Below are positions 13,348-20,799 of a stretch of 23,059 bases of DNA, in pieces. Positions within the stretch are counted from its first letter, which is position 1. Each line of letters begins with the position of its first letter. The position numbers were made by a program, and so were the translations under genes. The stretch comes from a virus. The notes beneath the pieces were generated by a model. The model was not told the origin of the DNA, did not search any database, and was given only the letters and a program-made list of their open reading frames with translations. The stretch is from the IMG/VR virus record IMGVR_UViG_3300020457_000107, positions 1 through 23,059 of that record; one strand, given 5' to 3'.

Positions 13348-13824
13348 ATGTTTGGTACAATTAGAATGGTAATGGTTGGAATTTTGATTACTGGTATCGC
13401 AGGTGCTGGTATGTACGTAATGAAATTACGTTCCGATAATGCTATTTTAAAAGCCAATCAAATTAAACTTGAAGAAGCAGTCAGCTCTCAAAAGGAGCTG
13501 ATTGCTAAACAGCAAGAAGACTTTAAAGAAATTTTAGCAGCAAACAATAAGATGAACGAACTTGTTGCAAATTTAAAAAAAGATTTAGATGATTTAGATA
13601 AAAGATTTAACAAAGGTGGAAGAGATTTTGGTAAACTTGCAATAGAAAAGACTGAAACAATACAAAGAATAATTAATGGTGCAAGTGATAAAGCAATAAG
13701 ATGTGTTGAAATAGCAGGTGGGTCACCACTTACCGAACAAGAACTAAACGCAACTAAAAAATCAGAAATTAATAGAGAGTGTCCATCAATAGCGAACCCG
13801 AATTATGTACCGTATAATAATTAG
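13348..13824 (+). CDS. i-spanin-like inner-membrane coiled-coil protein (158 aa)
   Basis: The protein has a single N-terminal transmembrane helix (residues 5-25, IRMVMVGILITGIAGAGMYV) and then a long periplasmic coiled coil from about 28 to 90. A conserved-looking segment RDFGKLAIEKTETIQRIING follows at about 92-111, then a Cys-containing C-terminal part (RCVEIAGGSPLT, ECPSI). This single-pass plus coiled-coil architecture is that of Rz-type i-spanins, which join an outer-membrane lipoprotein to fuse the membranes at lysis. The 3' end overlaps a lipoprotein gene in another frame by 20 bases, the typical Rz/Rz1 arrangement. No endolysin is in the window. Confidence 0.7.
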   Translation: MFGTIRMVMVGILITGIAGAGMYVMKLRSDNAILKANQIKLEEAVSSQKELIAKQQEDFKEILAANNKMNELVANLKKDLDDLDKRFNKGGRDFGKLAIEKTETIQRIINGASDKAIRCVEIAGGSPLTEQELNATKKSEINRECPSIANPNYVPYNN

Positions 13825-14179
13825 TATAATTTTCATAGGACTTTTAACAGGCTGCTCTGTAGGAGAGAAGAAGTTAAGTATATTTAAACTAGAAGAACCT
13901 AGACAAAAGTTAGACTTGAAGAAGCCTACTATGCCTGAACTAGAAAAGTTGAGATGGATTATTATTACTTCTGAAAATGCTACGGAAGTATTTCAAAAAA
14001 TGGAAGCAGAAGGACTTGATCCAGTATTATTTGGTTTAAGTGATAAAGACTTCCAATTAATCGCAAAAAACTTTGCTCAAATAAGAGCACATTTAAAACA
14101 CACTAACGATTTGTTAGAACAATATAAAGAATACTACGAGCCAGAAGATAAGAAAAAAGAGAAAAAGGAAACTGAATAA
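13805..14179 (+). CDS. Outer-membrane lipoprotein, o-spanin-like (124 aa)
   Basis: The N-terminus is a lipoprotein signal: MYRIIISIIFIGLLTGC with lipobox LTGC and C17 as the lipidated residue. The mature part has KPTMPELEKLRWIIITSENA, TEVFQKMEAEGLDP and a helical region ending in a Lys/Glu-rich tail. It overlaps the i-spanin-like gene by 20 bases. It is longer than classical Rz1 and not proline-rich, so if it is the o-spanin it is of the larger, T4 PseT.2-like kind. Residues 40-100 look like a small folded domain I do not recognise. A lipoprotein of other envelope function is the alternative. Confidence 0.65.
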   Translation: MYRIIISIIFIGLLTGCSVGEKKLSIFKLEEPRQKLDLKKPTMPELEKLRWIIITSENATEVFQKMEAEGLDPVLFGLSDKDFQLIAKNFAQIRAHLKHTNDLLEQYKEYYEPEDKKKEKKETE

Positions 14180-14189
14180 GAAAGACTAA

Positions 14190-14354
14190 ATGGACCTAGA
14201 GGTAATTACTATAATCAGTAAGATGTGGCCAATTTTTGTGGCATTTATTTTACTAATAGTTACCTTAGCTCAAGCACATTATAGAATTAAAGTATTGGAA
14301 GAAAAAGTAAAAGTAGCGTTTGAATTAATTAATAAATTAAACGATAAAAAATGA
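14190..14354 (+). CDS. Small single-pass membrane protein (54 aa)
   Basis: The frame runs ATG (14190) to TGA (14352-14354). The product starts MDLEVITIISKMWPIFVAFI and continues LLIVTLAQAHYRIKVLEEKV before a charged helix ending INKLNDKK. There is one transmembrane segment (about residues 12-28), then a short coiled-coil-like helix. AAGAAAG at 14178-14184 could serve as ribosome site. It lies 10 bases after the lipoprotein gene and its stop overlaps the next start (ATGA), so it is likely a real, coupled gene. The function is unknown; context suggests the envelope/lysis cluster. Confidence 0.55.
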   Translation: MDLEVITIISKMWPIFVAFILLIVTLAQAHYRIKVLEEKVKVAFELINKLNDKK

Positions 14355-14437
14355 AAATACTTTATACCCTAGCAGGTATTGTGGCAATCTTAACTATTAT
14401 TATAGTTATGAGTGTCTTTGTAATTGCTTCTATTTAA
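14351..14437 (+). CDS. Tiny hydrophobic membrane peptide (28 aa)
   Basis: The ATG at 14351 overlaps the preceding TGA (ATGA), which suggests translational coupling. The product is MKILYTLAGIVAILTIIIVM then SVFVIASI, a single hydrophobic helix of the length of a membrane span, with one N-terminal lysine. The stop at 14435-14437 lies within the last codons of the convergent cyclase gene. Its tiny size makes it uncertain, but the coupling and composition argue for a real micro-protein. Confidence 0.4.
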   Translation: MKILYTLAGIVAILTIIIVMSVFVIASI

Positions 14438-16046
14438 TAGAATAGATAGTAACCTTTTCCTCTTTACCTTTAACCTTTACATCATCTAGTTTATACCAAT
14501 CAAAACCAGTTAAATCTTTACGTGTGAACTCACTAATTACTATGTTAGTATCATAGTTTTTACTTACACCTTCTAGTCTACTTGCCAAATTAACAGCGTC
14601 ACCTATAACAGAATAATCAAACCTTTGTTCACTACCCATATTACCTACAAGACAAGGGCCTGTATTGATACCAATACCTATGTTTAGAGGTGGATCAAAT
14701 GTCATCTCTTTAAGTTTTTTTCTCATCTCTTGAGCTGACTTAACTGCTAATCTTTTATGCTCAGCATTATCTAGCGGTGCATTCCAAAAAGCCATTATAC
14801 AATCGCCCATATACTTATCAATAGTACCACCATTTTTTAATATTATATCAGTCATTGCAGTTAAAAACTTATTAACATATTGAGTAAGTTTTTCTGGTTC
14901 ACCTTTAAACTTTTCTGATATAGGAGTAAAACCTCTAATGTCTGAAAACAAAAACGTTAACTCTTTTCTTTCACCACCAAGTTTTAATAGAGATGGATTT
15001 TTTTGCAGTTTCTTAACCATATCTGGAGATAGATAGTGTTCAAATTGTTTTTTAATTTGCAATCTTAATTTATTTTCTTTTGCATAATTTTCATAAGTTA
15101 ATTGTGCCCATACAATAGAACCTATAACAAGTGGACTAAACCAATCAACTAAAATTAAATGTTGTGACCATAGATAAGCACTCATAATACCTATATCACC
15201 TACATAACTAGCGTACCATATTGCAGACCACTTAACACTACAACGAGGTATAGTCTTTACAAAAAATAAAATACTTACTAATATAAATGCCAATTCAGAA
15301 TATTTTATCCATTGTGGTCTACTAATAAAATTTTTAGACAATAAAGTTTCTGTGCTTATTGCCATAATTTCGTGTGTATTTTTTAAACCATTAGGAGTGG
15401 TAACAAATGTTGAACCTTTAAATGTAGTACCTATAAAAACTATTTTACCTTTCATAGATGACCAATCTTTATCTGTATAATCTATTCTAGGAATATGATG
15501 TCTAAAATCTATCCATATTTCTTCAGCGTTTGTTTTAAATTTAATTACATCTAAAATTGTTTTAGGTATAGAACCATCTAATGGAAGTTTTCTTATTGTA
15601 CCATCAATATCAACAGGTACAGATACGTTTCCTATTGCAAGTGCTTTACGTGAAATACTTTGTAGATTTTTTACTTCATCCGTTTCAGTAAGTATGACTG
15701 GATATTTTGAAATCATTTTTAAAAACATTTCATCACCACCTAATCTATCTTTATATGGAAAGACAACTTGTAAAACTACTAGAGCGGCACCATTTTTATA
15801 CGCATTGATTATTGTACGTCCTAATAGGTCTCTTTTCCAAGGCCATTGACCTTGCTTTTTCAAGGCTTGATCCGATATGTCCAAGAGTACTAGACTTTTG
15901 GATTCATAATTCTTTCCAAATTTTTGGTAGGAATCAAATGTATTTAACTTTGCTATCTGAAGCAATACTGGATTGACCAAATAAATTGTCAGTAAAACCA
16001 CTAGCGTCAAATATATTGACCACTTCTTTATATAATTCAACTTCAT
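14430..16046 (-). CDS. CHASE2-domain membrane adenylate cyclase (class III)
   Basis: This 538-residue protein is the only sizeable minus-strand gene. Residues 11-31 are a membrane helix. Residues about 40-245 are a periplasmic CHASE2 sensor, with LVLLDISDQALKKQGQWPWK at 52-71 and KGKIVFIGTTFKGSTFVTTP at 199-218. Three membrane helices follow at about 250-315. Residues 360-538 are the class III cyclase: metal-binding D369 (FSDIRGFT) and D415 (DKYMGD), adenine-specifying K411 and D483 (IGDAVN), and transition-state N486 and R490 (NLASR). All are intact, so it should convert ATP to cAMP. Base composition matches its neighbours. It diverges from csgF with 43 bases between them and runs towards the late genes. 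No clear ribosome site precedes its ATG. Such cyclases are common in bacteria, often near FecR-domain genes, but unusual in phages. Confidence 0.9.
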   Translation of the reverse strand: MKLNYIKKWSIYLTLVVLLTIYLVNPVLLQIAKLNTFDSYQKFGKNYESKSLVLLDISDQALKKQGQWPWKRDLLGRTIINAYKNGAALVVLQVVFPYKDRLGGDEMFLKMISKYPVILTETDEVKNLQSISRKALAIGNVSVPVDIDGTIRKLPLDGSIPKTILDVIKFKTNAEEIWIDFRHHIPRIDYTDKDWSSMKGKIVFIGTTFKGSTFVTTPNGLKNTHEIMAISTETLLSKNFISRPQWIKYSELAFILVSILFFVKTIPRCSVKWSAIWYASYVGDIGIMSAYLWSQHLILVDWFSPLVIGSIVWAQLTYENYAKENKLRLQIKKQFEHYLSPDMVKKLQKNPSLLKLGGERKELTFLFSDIRGFTPISEKFKGEPEKLTQYVNKFLTAMTDIILKNGGTIDKYMGDCIMAFWNAPLDNAEHKRLAVKSAQEMRKKLKEMTFDPPLNIGIGINTGPCLVGNMGSEQRFDYSVIGDAVNLASRLEGVSKNYDTNIVISEFTRKDLTGFDWYKLDDVKVKGKEEKVTIYSIK

Positions 16047-16059
16047 ACATTATATTTAT

Positions 16060-16067
16060 TATAAATA
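16060..16067 (+). promoter_or_regulatory. T4-type late promoter within a palindrome between cyclase and csgF
   Basis: An exact TATAAATA lies 22 bases before the csgF start, giving a leader of about 16 bases that includes AGAGAGAGG (16078-16086). The box is half of a perfect palindrome TATTTAT-T-ATAAATA (16053-16067). On the minus strand the same palindrome gives AATAAATA, one mismatch from consensus, facing the cyclase. Late, and possibly bidirectional, transcription is inferred. Confidence 0.65.
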
Positions 16068-16089: not shown

Positions 16090-16548
16090 ATGAAGTATAT
16101 TTCCAGTATATTTGCTGTATTATTTCTATCTTCTACTGTATATGCGAGTGAACTTACCTTTGAATTTGGGAGTCCTTCGTTTAGTGGTAAAGGTAAATCA
16201 TCACACTATTTAACAATAGAGAACATTGAGAAGACTAGAAAAGACGCTATCAAAGCTGCCGATAAAGCTGCTAAAGAAAAGGCAGAAGCGGATGCTAAAG
16301 CAACAGCTATATCAAAATTTAAAGCAAATTTAGAAGCAAGATTTTACACAGCTCTTGCTAAACAAATAACAGACAACGTATTCGGTACAGATGGTCTACA
16401 ACAAGACTCAGGAACATTTACATCACCTATTGGTGGAGAAGTGGTAACTTGGACAACACCATCTGGAACAGGTAATGTAGTAGTAACCGTAACCGAGTCT
16501 GATGGAACGGTAACAACATTTACGTTGCCGAAAGAAGACAACTCATAA
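16090..16548 (+). CDS. csgF: CsgF-like curli assembly factor
   Basis: The 152-residue protein has a Sec signal peptide, MKYISSIFAVLFLSSTVYA, cleaved before SELTF. The mature start SELTFEFGSPSFSG aligns with mature E. coli CsgF (GTMTFQFRNPNFGG), the segment that inserts into the CsgG pore. The asparagines at positions 9 and 11 are Ser here. A lysine/alanine-rich helix follows (about 45-80), then KFKANLEARFYTALAKQITD and a C-terminal part rich in Thr and Val ending TTFTLPKEDNS, matching the beta-rich C-terminal part of CsgF. CsgF sits extracellularly on CsgG and couples secretion to curlin nucleation. It is the first gene after a late promoter and overlaps csgG by the TAATG junction. AGAGAGAGG precedes the start. 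Confidence 0.85.
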   Translation: MKYISSIFAVLFLSSTVYASELTFEFGSPSFSGKGKSSHYLTIENIEKTRKDAIKAADKAAKEKAEADAKATAISKFKANLEARFYTALAKQITDNVFGTDGLQQDSGTFTSPIGGEVVTWTTPSGTGNVVVTVTESDGTVTTFTLPKEDNS

Positions 16549-17600
16549 TGATTAAATACATAGGAATATTTTTACTAGCATTGTTGCTGGCTGGTTGTGC
16601 AGGAAAGCCAAAGTTTGATGTAAGAACTCAAACAGTTGCTTATAAAGACTTATCAACTATAAAAGCACCAGAAGGTGATCCAGTTATAATTGCTGTGTAT
16701 GATTTTTTAGATATGACAGGACAAAAGAAACCTGGTGGTTCTTTTGCGTCTATGAGTACAGCGGTTACTCAAGGATCGTATCAGTTATTAATTAAAGCAC
16801 TTGCAGACGCAGGTGATGGTAAATGGTTTAGAGTTGTAGAAAGAACAAGTTTACCTAGTCTATTACAAGAAAGAAAATTGATTAGGTCTACAAGACAACA
16901 AGTTAATGGAGAAGGTGCAGAACCTTTACCACCATTACTATTTGCTGGTGCCTATATCACAGGTGGTATTGTAGGTTATGATAGTGATATTAAATCAGGT
17001 GGTCTTGGTGCTAGAATTTTAGGTATACAAAGTAATAAACAATATAGACAAGATATTGTAACCATTATATTAAGATTAGTAAATGTACAAACTGGTGAAG
17101 TAGTAATTTCAACTAGTGTTGAGAAAACAATAGTTTCTACATCAATTGGTGGAGATATATTTAAGTACTTTGATACTGATACAATGTTATTAGAAGTAGA
17201 AGCTGGTTATGCTAAAAATGAACCAGTTACCTTTGCAGTAAGAAAAGCAATAGAAAAAGGTGTAGTAGATTTAATTAATCAAGGTGCAGAAAAAGGACTA
17301 TGGGAGTTTGAAAAGATTAAAGAGGTTGAAGTACCTGAAATAAAAGATTATATAGATGATGATGGTACCAATAAAGTAGAAAATGGTATACACGTAGATA
17401 TGGGTGAAGTAAAACCAGAGAAAACTTATGAAGACTATTTGGAAGAAAAGAAATTAAAGAAAGAAAACGAAGCGGCAGATGAAGTATTAAAAGAATTAGC
17501 TGCTGAAGAAGAGTGGAATCAATTAGAAGAAACAGAAAAGGAGAATGCTGATGAAAAAGATAATGATAGCGATAGTGATTCTTCTGGCGACAACAATTAA
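16548..17600 (+). CDS. csgG: CsgG-like outer-membrane curli secretion channel lipoprotein
   Basis: This 350-residue protein has a lipoprotein signal with lipobox LAGC (C17). Family landmarks are clear: VIIAVYDFLDMTGQKKPG at 46-63, STAVTQGSYQLLIKALADAG at 70-89, WFRVVERTSLPSLLQERKLI at 93-112, SDIKSGGLGARILGI, RLVNVQTGEVVIS and a C-terminal EKGVVDLINQGAEKGLWEF. CsgG forms a nonameric outer-membrane pore that exports curlin subunits. The constriction loop (residues 62-70, PGGSFASMS) is one residue longer than in E. coli and lacks its Tyr and Phe at the equivalent places. After residue about 260 there is an extra acidic tail of about 90 residues, absent in E. coli CsgG, ending in an Asp/Ser-rich stretch. 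The tail's coding region overlaps the start of the curlin gene by 50 bases. Confidence 0.92.
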   Translation: MIKYIGIFLLALLLAGCAGKPKFDVRTQTVAYKDLSTIKAPEGDPVIIAVYDFLDMTGQKKPGGSFASMSTAVTQGSYQLLIKALADAGDGKWFRVVERTSLPSLLQERKLIRSTRQQVNGEGAEPLPPLLFAGAYITGGIVGYDSDIKSGGLGARILGIQSNKQYRQDIVTIILRLVNVQTGEVVISTSVEKTIVSTSIGGDIFKYFDTDTMLLEVEAGYAKNEPVTFAVRKAIEKGVVDLINQGAEKGLWEFEKIKEVEVPEIKDYIDDDGTNKVENGIHVDMGEVKPEKTYEDYLEEKKLKKENEAADEVLKELAAEEEWNQLEETEKENADEKDNDSDSDSSGDNN

Positions 17601-18639
17601 TTGTTGGGCAGGTAATTCTGTTTATATTCAACAAGACGACCAGACAGCTCCAGGATCAATCTATATTAAACAAGATGGTTCAGGCAATAAGGTAGGTATA
17701 AGTACCTCTTCAACCTTTAATGTAAAAGGTGCAAATTTAACACTTATCATCAAACAATTAGGTAATAATAACGTTGCTACTGATAGCAACCACAAGTCAT
17801 TTATGGGTTCCAATATGACTTTTGATTATTCAGCAACAGGTAACTCAAACGTATTAAGATTAGACCTAGATGACGTAGGTGCTGATGGTCATTATTACGA
17901 TATTGATATTACAGGTGCTTCAAATATAGTAGAAATAGATTCAAATACAAGTGATGACATACAAGATACTCACATAGATTTAGATATAAGAGGAGACTCA
18001 AATGATTTTTGGGCATATGTTAGAGGTGATTCACACTTCTTATATGTTCTTATGTCAGGTGACTCAAATGATGTAGAATTTTATGGTGCAACTAACTCAA
18101 CTGGTATGGTTGGTTCTAGTAAAGCAAACGTAATGATAGGTCCTGATGTAGAGTCTCACGGTATCTTTGCTGATACAAGCGGTGATGAAGGTGCAACTAT
18201 TGACGTTTATATAATTGGAAGTTCCAATACAGTACATATGGCAAGTTGGGGTGCAAGCAACTATCAAGTACACGATATTATAGGTGACTCAAATGTTTTA
18301 GATGTTCACCCAGACGCAGTTGGTTCACACGTTAGAATGATCCAATATGGAGATAACAATTATATGAAAACGGTAACTAGTGGAGACGATAATACATTTA
18401 GATATTATGGAAGTGGTGGAAATAATAAAGCATATGTTTATATCTACACATCGGACGCAACTGTAGAATTAAAACAAACAGGTGGTTCTAATACTGCTAC
18501 TTTAACAGTAAATGGTTCATCAATTTATGACTTTACTTTATTAGTAGACCAAGACGGTTCAGACACTTGTACTTACACATACAATAGAAGCAATCAAACA
18601 GCAGACACAACTGTACAATTAAATAACAGCGGGTGTTAA
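17551..18639 (+). CDS. Curlin-like secreted fibre subunit with GxxN repeats
   Basis: I start at the ATG at 17551, seven bases after AAGGAG; the ATG at 17545 is too close to it. The 362-residue protein has a Sec signal, MKKIMIAIVILLATTINCWA, then about 340 residues of repeats with the curlin hallmark G-x-x-N between alternating strands. Examples are IKQDGSGNKV, IIKQLGNNNVA, SATGNSNVL, DIRGDSND, IIGDSNVL and ELKQTGGSNTA. Thirteen or so such units occur, and from residue 223 to 311 the glycines fall in an exact 11-residue register. It is much longer and more acidic than CsgA (about 150 residues), with a Cys-terminated end (SGC). Being directly downstream of csgG, it is the presumed cargo of the CsgG/CsgF channel, forming an amyloid-like beta-solenoid fibre on the infected cell. 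Whether it is major subunit or nucleator is open. Confidence 0.8.
   Translation: MKKIMIAIVILLATTINCWAGNSVYIQQDDQTAPGSIYIKQDGSGNKVGISTSSTFNVKGANLTLIIKQLGNNNVATDSNHKSFMGSNMTFDYSATGNSNVLRLDLDDVGADGHYYDIDITGASNIVEIDSNTSDDIQDTHIDLDIRGDSNDFWAYVRGDSHFLYVLMSGDSNDVEFYGATNSTGMVGSSKANVMIGPDVESHGIFADTSGDEGATIDVYIIGSSNTVHMASWGASNYQVHDIIGDSNVLDVHPDAVGSHVRMIQYGDNNYMKTVTSGDDNTFRYYGSGGNNKAYVYIYTSDATVELKQTGGSNTATLTVNGSSIYDFTLLVDQDGSDTCTYTYNRSNQTADTTVQLNNSGC
17677..18492 (+). repeat. Curlin-type GxxN protein repeat array
   Basis: Degenerate repeats encode G-x-x-N turns at residues 43, 71, 97, 122, 148, 170, 223, 234, 245, 267, 278, 289 (imperfect) and 311. The early units are 22-28 residues apart. The later ones are multiples of 11, matching one beta-strand plus turn of a curlin solenoid. 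The repeats are visible at protein level and diverged at DNA level, so recent slippage is unlikely. Confidence 0.7.
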
Positions 18640-20799
18640 ATGAGAAAGATATTTTTTCTAATATCTTTTTTAGTACTTTTCTGTACTAGTATAGGTGCTC
18701 AAATAACATCACCTAAAGTAGGTGAAGTTATAGGTCAAATGGGTACTACTTGGAATGAACGTGATGGCCAAACTCAAAATACATCAATGGGTTATGAGTT
18801 GCAGATGAACGACTTTTTACAAACTGGTGAAGATGGTGGTATGATTATATCATATGTTGATAAAACTAAATTTACTATGGGACCTAATACAGAATTAATT
18901 ATTGATGAATTTGCTTTTGATACTTCGGTTGTACCTATAGAATTGGCAATGAATATATCAGTTAACGTTGGTACATTTACATATGAATCAGGAAGTGTAT
19001 CAGCATTAGGTGGCGAAGTAAATATAAATGCTGGTAATGCCACAATTACAGTACAAGGTACTGCCTTTTCAGGATCAGTTGATACCTCAGGTAAAGCAAC
19101 AATTACTTTGTTGCCTGATAGTGATGGTGCAGTAGGTCAAGTAACCGTATCCAATGACGCAGGTTCTCAAACAATAACTAACGCTTACAATTCAGTAACC
19201 GTTTATAATAATGATTTAGCACCTACGCCTCCAAAAATAGAAACTAATAAACAAGATATTATTGAGTTAGATAAATTTGAAGATGAAATAAAAGATGAAT
19301 CATCAAAATCTTTTGGTGATGTAGATAAGAAATCTGAAATGTCTAAAGAAGAAGCAAAGGCACAGGAGATGGAAGAGGCAATTATTAATGAAGAAGCAAG
19401 TGTTGTAGAAGATAGTAATACAATTGTTGCTACAGATATGTCTGCTAGTGAAACAGATTCAATGATTGAAATGGAATCAGTAGAAGAAAAAGGTTTAGAT
19501 ACAACTATTGAATCAGAAGTAGATACATCTTATTATGATGAATGGGAAGATGATTTAAAAGAGTGGGGTTATATAGATGAAGATAACCAAATTTCAGTAT
19601 GGGATGCTGAAGGTGAAAAGACTATGGATTGGGATGACGCTAAACAAATGTATGCTGAAATGGATCAAGCATATTTTGACGCCATTGGTTGTTCAGATTG
19701 TACTTGGGATAGTGTTGATTGGGATAATATAAATTGGGACGAGGTTGATTGGGATGCTTATGATGAAGCATATAACGAAATTTTATCTGACTATGGTTTA
19801 ACTTCTTGGAATGTAGAAGTAGAATCAACAGACGTAGTTGAAGAAACAAAAGAAGAAACAGAAGTTGAACTATCAGAAGGTTATACTTGGGAAGACTTTG
19901 CTTTAGATGATTCATATTATAAAAACGCTGAATATATTGCTCAAGGTGGTCCTCCTAAATTAACAGTAGAAAACTATTGTGTGTATAATGGTTACGAAGA
20001 CTATTGGTGTAACCAAGAGTACATTGATTACTTAAACGAATGGTACAAAGATGACTGGGATTTAAAAGTAACCTATGATAGTTGGGATAAGAAATCTAAA
20101 AAATTATTTGGTAAGATGTATGGTTGGTGTGGAACTTGGCCGAATTGGGAAATGTGTCCTGACCAACCTAAACCTTGGAAGATGAAAGACTTAAAGAAAA
20201 AGTATCTTTCAGAATGGTCTTGGAATGATTGGGATGTTTACTGGGACGCATTATACGATTGGTGGTATACAGGTTACGATTATAACAATGAAGATACAGA
20301 AACAAGCTGGGAAGATGAATATGCTTATGAAGATGATTATGATATAGACGCTGAATTAGAGTTATGGTTAGCAGATATAGATAACGAGGAAGATTGTACT
20401 GCCTGGGGTTATTTCTGGGATAAAGCAAACTCTAAATGTGGTACTGAATGGGTTGACAATAGTGGTTCAGAAACTACAATAACTGCTAGTGGTGAAACAT
20501 TAAACTATACTACAGGAGATATCACACAAACTATTACTACAACAAATGAACTTACAGGTTCATCTTCCGAAACTAGAACAGGAAGATACTCAACATTAAA
20601 TAACGATTTTGACGCAACAGCAAGTGAGAGTGGAGACTACACAATTATAAATAGATATAACGATAATCATAGAGCTTATATCAAAACTGAAACTGATAAT
20701 GAGGCTGATGTTCAGATATTACAAGATAAAGAAGCTCAACACCTTGACGTAGGAGATACTCTCTTACAAAATAATATTACAATAATACAAACGGATTAA
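18640..20799 (+). CDS. Secreted FecR-domain protein with acidic tryptophan-rich region
   Basis: The gene starts immediately after the curlin stop. The 719-residue product has a signal peptide, MRKIFFLISFLVLFCTSIGA, and a FecR domain at about 25-190: KVGEVIGQMGTTWNERDG, NDFLQTGEDGGMIISYVDKT, MGPNTELIIDEFAFDT. Residues 195-290 are acidic and low-complexity. Residues about 300-605 are dense in Asp, Glu, Tyr and Trp, with about 29 tryptophans, spaced WD repeats (WDSVDWDNINWDEVDWDAYD) and roughly ten cysteines, including CSDC. The end is Thr/Ser-rich and beta-like. FecR-type domains occur in periplasmic or surface proteins and often accompany CHASE2 cyclases in bacteria. No membrane anchor is visible, so it is probably periplasmic or exported. 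Calcium binding or disulfide cross-linking are guesses from composition. Confidence 0.75.
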   Translation: MRKIFFLISFLVLFCTSIGAQITSPKVGEVIGQMGTTWNERDGQTQNTSMGYELQMNDFLQTGEDGGMIISYVDKTKFTMGPNTELIIDEFAFDTSVVPIELAMNISVNVGTFTYESGSVSALGGEVNINAGNATITVQGTAFSGSVDTSGKATITLLPDSDGAVGQVTVSNDAGSQTITNAYNSVTVYNNDLAPTPPKIETNKQDIIELDKFEDEIKDESSKSFGDVDKKSEMSKEEAKAQEMEEAIINEEASVVEDSNTIVATDMSASETDSMIEMESVEEKGLDTTIESEVDTSYYDEWEDDLKEWGYIDEDNQISVWDAEGEKTMDWDDAKQMYAEMDQAYFDAIGCSDCTWDSVDWDNINWDEVDWDAYDEAYNEILSDYGLTSWNVEVESTDVVEETKEETEVELSEGYTWEDFALDDSYYKNAEYIAQGGPPKLTVENYCVYNGYEDYWCNQEYIDYLNEWYKDDWDLKVTYDSWDKKSKKLFGKMYGWCGTWPNWEMCPDQPKPWKMKDLKKKYLSEWSWNDWDVYWDALYDWWYTGYDYNNEDTETSWEDEYAYEDDYDIDAELELWLADIDNEEDCTAWGYFWDKANSKCGTEWVDNSGSETTITASGETLNYTTGDITQTITTTNELTGSSSETRTGRYSTLNNDFDATASESGDYTIINRYNDNHRAYIKTETDNEADVQILQDKEAQHLDVGDTLLQNNITIIQTD
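20646..20653 (+). promoter_or_regulatory. Candidate internal late promoter TATAAATA
   Basis: An exact TATAAATA lies inside the 3' part of the FecR gene, about 150 bases before the next start. It could add transcripts of the two genes at 20801-21303, but the distance is long and coding sequence could produce it by chance. Confidence 0.3.

Follow-up and report, generated by a model that had tools for sequence, protein, structure and literature searches.

Curli gene clusters of phages were described by Zaragoza-Solas et al. in 2020 (PMC7029224), and in 2022 it was reported by Wittmers et al. that the curli clusters of pelagiphages also contain an adenylate cyclase and FecR, for which an alphaproteobacterial origin was argued, together with transfer between phage families (PMC9599517). 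In Pelagibacter phage HTVC008M and in four Melnitz isolates, where the cyclase was recovered by tblastn, it is annotated as an adenylate/guanylate cyclase and stands at the end of csgF-csgG-curlin-FecR operons. A CHASE2 cyclase in a phage curli module is therefore already known as a kind, and the novelty that an earlier note on the DNA analysed here had claimed for it was overstated; neither is the gene restricted to a single contig, the outcome which that note had named in advance as speaking against its reading, since relatives are encoded on at least 599 stretches in IMG/VR. Among bacteria, consecutive locus numbers in S. meliloti run from clr (SMc02175) through the CHASE2 cyclase gene cyaD1 (SMc02176) and the FecR-domain gene smc02177 to smc02178, and mutation of smc02177 did not lead to a significant loss of the signal response (PMC5498481). 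In the literature on these phage modules, no earlier description was found of the variant in which cyclase and csgF lie head-to-head with a pair of late motifs between them, of the complete retention of the cyclase in csg loci of the present type, of selection on the cyclase at the level of its domains, or of the absence of a canonical cAMP receiver in presumed hosts and phages.

The cyclase gene and its catalytic site

The stretch analysed, here called the window, comprises 23,059 nucleotides of the IMG/VR virus record IMGVR_UViG_3300020457_000107 and contains the following features.

14430..16046, minus strand: CHASE2-type membrane class III adenylate cyclase, 538 aa (ORF call, Pfam, AlphaFold2)
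15270..16001, minus strand: CHASE2 domain, residues 16-259, with TM1, a compact periplasmic sensor and the start of TM2 (PF05226, 1e-25; AlphaFold2 model)
14436..14966, minus strand: class III cyclase catalytic domain, residues 361-537, with D369, K411, D415, S479, N486 and R490 (PF00211, 7e-24; solved structures 3r5g, 2w01/6fht)
16053..16060, minus strand: late-promoter-like element AATAAATA facing the cyclase, 12 nt before its ATG (TAAATA conservation)
16060..16067, plus strand: T4-type late promoter element TATAAATA facing csgF (NATAAATA conservation)
16090..16548, plus strand: csgF (Pfam CsgF, 1.3e-11)
16548..17600, plus strand: csgG, outer-membrane secretion pore (Pfam CsgG, 2.9e-51)
17545..18639, plus strand: curlin-repeat protein (CsgA/B-like) with a signal peptide-like start (Pfam Curlin_rpt, 1.4e-4)
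18640..20799, plus strand: FecR-domain-like secreted protein, 719 aa, with an acidic, Trp-rich tail (Pfam FecR, 1.9e-4; PHROG 37870, 7e-22; synteny)

The minus-strand open reading frame at 14430-16046, read in the earlier note as a cyclase, is real and encodes a protein of 538 aa in which two Pfam domains lie far above their cut-offs, namely CHASE2 (91.2 bits against a PF05226 cut-off of 26.3 bits, E 1e-25, profile positions 4-252 of 257) and Guanylate_cyc (PF00211, 84.8 bits, E 7e-24, residues 361-537). The AlphaFold2 model, built on an alignment of 48 phage and bacterial sequences, has a mean pLDDT of 88.9 and predicts helices at residues 2-24, 245-268, 271-296 and 303-335, the last of which continues into a coiled coil, and thus a 1+3 topology of an N-terminal helix, a periplasmic domain and three helices leading into the catalytic domain. 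The four membrane helices proposed previously are backed by this model, hydropathy by itself giving three clear peaks. The CHASE2 sensor is full in the sense that the whole Pfam model is spanned, yet it has a compact form, the loops after residues 126 and 175 each being about 30 residues shorter than in phages of the HTVC008M type. With a CHASE2 domain above the curated cut-off and a 1+3 layout, the protein belongs among the CHASE2 receptor cyclases, and fold comparison places it nearest to solved class III catalytic domains, those of P. aeruginosa CyaB (3r5g), Synechocystis Cya2 (2w01) and the engineered 6fht.

The catalytic set had been described as complete, and D369, K411, D415, N486 and R490 do stand at the positions given for them; D483, on the other hand, had been misassigned: it does not recognise the base and represents instead the Asp that is invariant in the VIGDAVN loop. 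The second base-recognition position is S479, the partner of K411, as seen when the loop Y-S-V-I-G-D-A-V-N is aligned to its counterpart in mammalian C2, Y-D-I-W-G-N-T-V-N; the roles of the residues are assigned from established knowledge of class III cyclases. On this assignment D369 and D415 form the metal-binding Asp pair, invariant in 84/84 aligned phage rows, N486 and R490 are the transition-state Asn and Arg, and K411 with S479 corresponds to the adenylate-type combination of an adenine-recognising Lys with an Asp, Thr or Ser partner. The catalytic D/K/D/R residues are present in all 84 phage rows and the Asn in 83 of them, and the S479 position is occupied by Ser or Thr in 79/80 viral and 80/80 bacterial homologues; judged from these alignments, a K/S(T) combination is the norm for this CHASE2 cyclase family, bacterial members included. 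In the alignments with PDB entries, position 411 is Glu in the Cya2 of 2w01, labelled a guanylyl cyclase by its depositors, and Lys in 6fht, labelled an adenylate/guanylate cyclase, and for this reason K411 favours ATP as substrate. Melnitz, where N486 is replaced by Ser and the S479 position holds Asp, is the sole phage exception, suggesting that full cyclase activity may be dispensable in some phages. The view that the phage carries an apparently active receptor-type adenylate cyclase is supported by the intact predicted catalytic set of the window protein.

Both domains of the cyclase have been kept. Compared with its nearest relatives, the window cyclase shows synonymous distances of 0.65-0.67 and non-synonymous distances of about 0.15, and dN/dS amounts to about 0.12-0.15 in CHASE2 and about 0.24-0.28 in the catalytic part (window versus L004 and L006, and L004 versus L006), the two comparisons that involve the window giving 0.12-0.14 and 0.24-0.26, respectively; this indicates purifying selection on sensor and enzyme alike. 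The domains are also exchanged by recombination, as indicated by two chimeric cyclases that join a window-type CHASE2 to an HTVC008M-type catalytic domain (L026:8894-10549 and L027:9983-11638) and by synonymous distances that differ strongly between the two domains in L004, L006 and L007. In the tree the phage cyclases constitute one viral clade, apart from MAG-derived members; 4 of the 80 best bacterial-genome matches fall inside this clade, L131 being a phage-type curli locus.

Linkage to the curli module and its predicted expression

The physical tie between cyclase and curli module, on which the earlier note had remarked for the window, recurs in related loci. A search seeded by csgG, in which the cyclase was not used as query, returned 50 loci, and the cyclase is present in 41/41 of those whose flanks allow a decision, a count that represents fewer independent cases because some of the contigs are near-identical. 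It is head-to-head with csgF, as in the window, in 27 of these loci, and at the operon end after FecR in the remaining 14. The window cyclase thus sits in a csgF-csgG-curlin-FecR cluster of the pelagiphage kind, in a divergent position upstream of csgF instead of the usual, though not strictly defining, one after FecR on the operon strand. In a tree of window-type cyclases the head-to-head arrangement falls in two separate clades, indicating either two origins or a single reversal. At least two contigs with related cyclases, L061 and L080, have no csg genes in the flanking sequence covered, so that across all relatives the tie is very strong and not absolute. The FecR gene of the window is weak by Pfam (22.2 bits, just under the 24-bit cut-off) and syntenic with FecR of HTVC008M and Melnitz; its identity, tentatively assigned, leans mainly on position and on PHROG 37870.

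Several further observations concern the surroundings of the cyclase. Genes up to 4 kb downstream of it form no family common to most loci, and no conserved receiver gene was found beside it. An overlapping Rz/Rz1-like spanin pair (PHROG lysis families) adjoins the window cyclase on the opposite strand at 13348-14179, and between the two lie small unannotated ORFs for membrane peptides at 14190-14354 and 14351-14437, the former being convergent to the cyclase and kept in 12 related loci. A second, opposite-strand cyclase copy occurs after the FecR gene in L217:14503-14742, L218:14361-16286 and L219:14503-15657, and in L014:3086-4381 a second copy faces the first and may be an assembly artefact.

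The earlier note had described the cyclase as divergent to csgF with promoters 43 bases apart; the divergence holds, and the 43 bases are the spacing of the start codons. The two late-promoter-like octamers in this interval, at 16053-16060 on the minus and 16060-16067 on the plus strand, overlap by one base. Among distinct loci, NATAAATA lies no more than 90 bases upstream of csgF in 40/43, as against 1.6% of random 90-mers, and TAAATA lies upstream of the cyclase ATG in 24/25 divergent loci, mostly at 12-22 bases, as against 5% of random 75-mers. Owing to the relatedness of the loci these counts are not independent, but the intergenic sequence around the motifs varies widely. The single divergent locus without TAAATA is L018, whose start call is doubtful. 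Taken alone, TATAAATA is not above chance in the window (6 found, 6 expected), and it is therefore informative only through its conserved position before csgF. Classical sigma-70 promoters were also considered for the region and discarded, their counts equalling the shuffled background. The conserved placement of the motifs supports late, divergent expression of the cyclase and csgF transcripts, as predicted from sequence. HTVC008M, curli and the cyclase all go unmentioned in a paper on pelagiphage transcriptomes (PMC12753301).

As regards the genomic site, nrdA relates the window contig most closely to Pelagibacter phage Mosig (82%), and we infer that the host of the window phage is probably SAR11. 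Mosig has no curli-cyclase module, no match to the cyclase being returned in the searches for relatives, and it retains the DUF7201-primase-nrdA order that stands just after the FecR-like gene in the window; among the genes at that end of Mosig, no match to cyclase, CsgF, CsgG or FecR profiles was found that would represent a curli relic. This conserved order in a phage lacking the module suggests an exchangeable surface-protein cassette at a conserved site beside primase and nrdA. In Mosig, different putative secreted proteins occupy the site of the window's module (L084:37548-40213).

The predicted cyclic-nucleotide signal and its possible receiver

A FecR neighbour is also found for CHASE2 cyclases outside phages. 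Of the 80 best bacterial-genome matches, about 76 lie outside the viral clade and have no curli genes, and a FecR-domain gene is located within 10 kb of the cyclase in 21 of these, within 2.1 kb in 20 of the 21 and in several orientations; six of the 21 are Thalassospira loci, so that not all are independent, and FecR was confirmed by Pfam in 4/4 curli-free loci tested. FecR and the CHASE2 cyclase consequently form a recurrent pair independent of curli, which the phage module, as far as its gene content indicates, combines with type VIII secretion. The same combination exists in L086, apparently a genuine piece of Caulobacteraceae chromosome with a TonB receptor and glycosyltransferases, in the order csgF-csgG-curlin-FecR-cyclase. 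At L086:12482-13075, 442 bp downstream of the cyclase, lies a PycTM-like two-helix gene (PF18967, 8.8e-25), whose product is a possible nucleotide receiver. In a marine Rickettsiales MAG (L168, on contig C17 of genome G003) a gene for a cNMP-binding protein stands beside a cyclase that matches the phage CHASE2-cyclase profile, a candidate natural cyclase-receptor pair.

From the gene, its domains, linkage, selection and promoter motifs, all of which can be read in the DNA, we infer a ligand, cAMP as product, a receiver and a benefit, and it is considered probable, with some reserve, that the gene encodes a functional receptor-type adenylate cyclase of a phage curli (type VIII secretion)/FecR module, giving a late, envelope-coupled cAMP signal to a non-CRP receiver. 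Late in infection, CsgG/CsgF, the curlin-repeat protein and the FecR-domain protein would reach the periplasm and outer membrane, and the CHASE2 domain would read the state of this envelope module, possibly that of the FecR protein. Transmembrane signalling would switch on dimeric conversion of ATP to cAMP, which would act on a receiver other than CRP that is not recognisable in the phage. What counts against this reading is that neither host nor phage shows a recognisable receptor for cAMP, that Melnitz carries substitutions in the catalytic set, that L061 and L080 have the cyclase with no csg genes in the flanks covered, and that the S. meliloti smc02177 mutant kept its response; by analogy with the latter, FecR may be an output and not the ligand of the sensor. 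A more specific version is possible, if rather doubtful: a receptor-driven phage cAMP circuit in a group essentially without its own cAMP system, whose receiver would have to be a so far unrecognised protein, encoded by the phage (or by SAR11), that binds cAMP without being CRP and exerts control over curli secretion or lysis.

The alternatives that place the target in the host depend on what SAR11 cells contain, for which 147 genomes were used, of unstated completeness, from the family of the 'Candidatus Pelagibacter' MAG G001, a set identified as SAR11 by the name of G001 and by the two sigma factors, a SAR11 trait, in most genomes. It had been suggested that the phage might reprogramme its host by raising cAMP, which would have to act on a CRP-type regulon to redirect metabolism, and the catalytically intact look of the predicted enzyme would suit this, as would S. 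meliloti, in which CHASE2 cyclases feed the CRP-family regulator Clr (PMC5498481). However, the cNMP-binding domain PF00027 is found in 9/147 of these genomes, a Crp-type HTH above cut-off in 2/147 and a class III cyclase in 3/147 (the copy in G001 being on a phage contig and that in G014 scoring like the phage type), compared with 145/147 for the sigma-70 control, and no phage-encoded cNMP-binding domain occurs in 16 cyclase-bearing phage records, among them the complete genomes of HTVC008M and Melnitz. The textbook cAMP receptor being absent on both sides, such reprogramming through CRP has no visible wiring and is quite unlikely. Still more improbable is the second suggestion of the earlier note, namely interference with cyclic-nucleotide defence, in which the cyclase product would jam or flood such a system of the host (Pycsar/CBASS). 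PADLOC PycC models do match the catalytic domain (5e-27), and L086 offers a bacterial csg-FecR-cyclase operon with a PycTM-like 2TM gene, but the match to the best PycC model is confined to its generic cyclase domain (positions 186-340 of 374), and the K/S pair marks a purine-type active site. PycTM was found in 0/147 genomes of the presumed host family, and the few class III cyclases there argue in the same direction, as do the strict curli linkage and late promoter, which this explanation leaves unaccounted for. Neither the window nor any of 16 related phage records yielded a PF18967 nucleotide-gated effector; identity as a Pycsar cyclase was rejected on the partial PycC coverage and the lack of an adjacent effector.

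Two further readings keep the cyclase within the phage. It could be a passenger, brought in as part of an alphaproteobacterial curli operon and of no function in itself to the phage, an idea consistent with the identical gene order in the Caulobacteraceae contig, with the alphaproteobacterial origin argued previously (PMC9599517) and with the lack of a recognisable receiver; a dN/dS well under 1 in both domains, retention in every resolvable csg locus and the occurrence, in two separate clades, of a cyclase head-to-head with csgF behind a late-type promoter motif of its own are difficult to reconcile with a gene of no use and render it unlikely. We judge it similarly unlikely that lysis or envelope stress is what the cyclase detects, and that it sets the moment of lysis via the CsgGF pore instead of serving curli fibres: the spanin-like pair adjoins the cyclase, a role of CsgGF in timing lysis has been proposed for Melnitz (PMC9004378) and the promoter motifs are late, whereas no gene is kept directly downstream of the cyclase across phages and the retained curlin-repeat protein points to fibre secretion. 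Few components of the curli module of abundant marine phages are retained as strictly as the cyclase, and for the signal expected from it the presumed hosts have no known receiver. An auxiliary gene that was known and lacked an explanation thereby poses a precise question, namely which component of a SAR11-type cell responds to cAMP made by the phage. The results also point to FecR and the CHASE2 cyclase as a pair with a general part in envelope signalling, open to testing in culturable bacteria such as Thalassospira or S. meliloti.

Comparison with described cyclases

Among described systems, the cyclase of the pelagiphage T8SS/curli cluster in HTVC008M (AGE60353.1) is like that of the window in its CHASE2 and class III cyclase domains, in its linkage to csgF, csgG, curlin repeats and FecR, and in belonging to the same viral clade; the two share 33% identity, and the window protein differs by its compact CHASE2 and by the head-to-head instead of operon-end position of its gene. 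The cyclase of Methylophilales phage Melnitz (QZI94833.1) matches that of HTVC008M in domains and operon position and is 28% identical to the window protein, from which it departs by a catalytic Asn replaced by Ser and by Asp at the S479 position. CyaB (3r5g) and Cya2 (2w01/6fht) have a class III catalytic fold like that of the window, with 33-42% identity over the aligned part, and for these PDB entries no CHASE2 is reported, unlike the window cyclase. CyaD1, CyaD2 and CyaK of S. meliloti are receptor-type CHASE2 cyclases, as is that of the window, with a FecR-domain gene neighbouring cyaD1, and they are activated by an envelope-relayed signal through NsrA (PMC5498481, PMC13001267). They act via the CRP-family regulator Clr, for which neither the SAR11 family nor the phages yielded a counterpart, and, in contrast to the window cyclase, they are not described within a curli operon.
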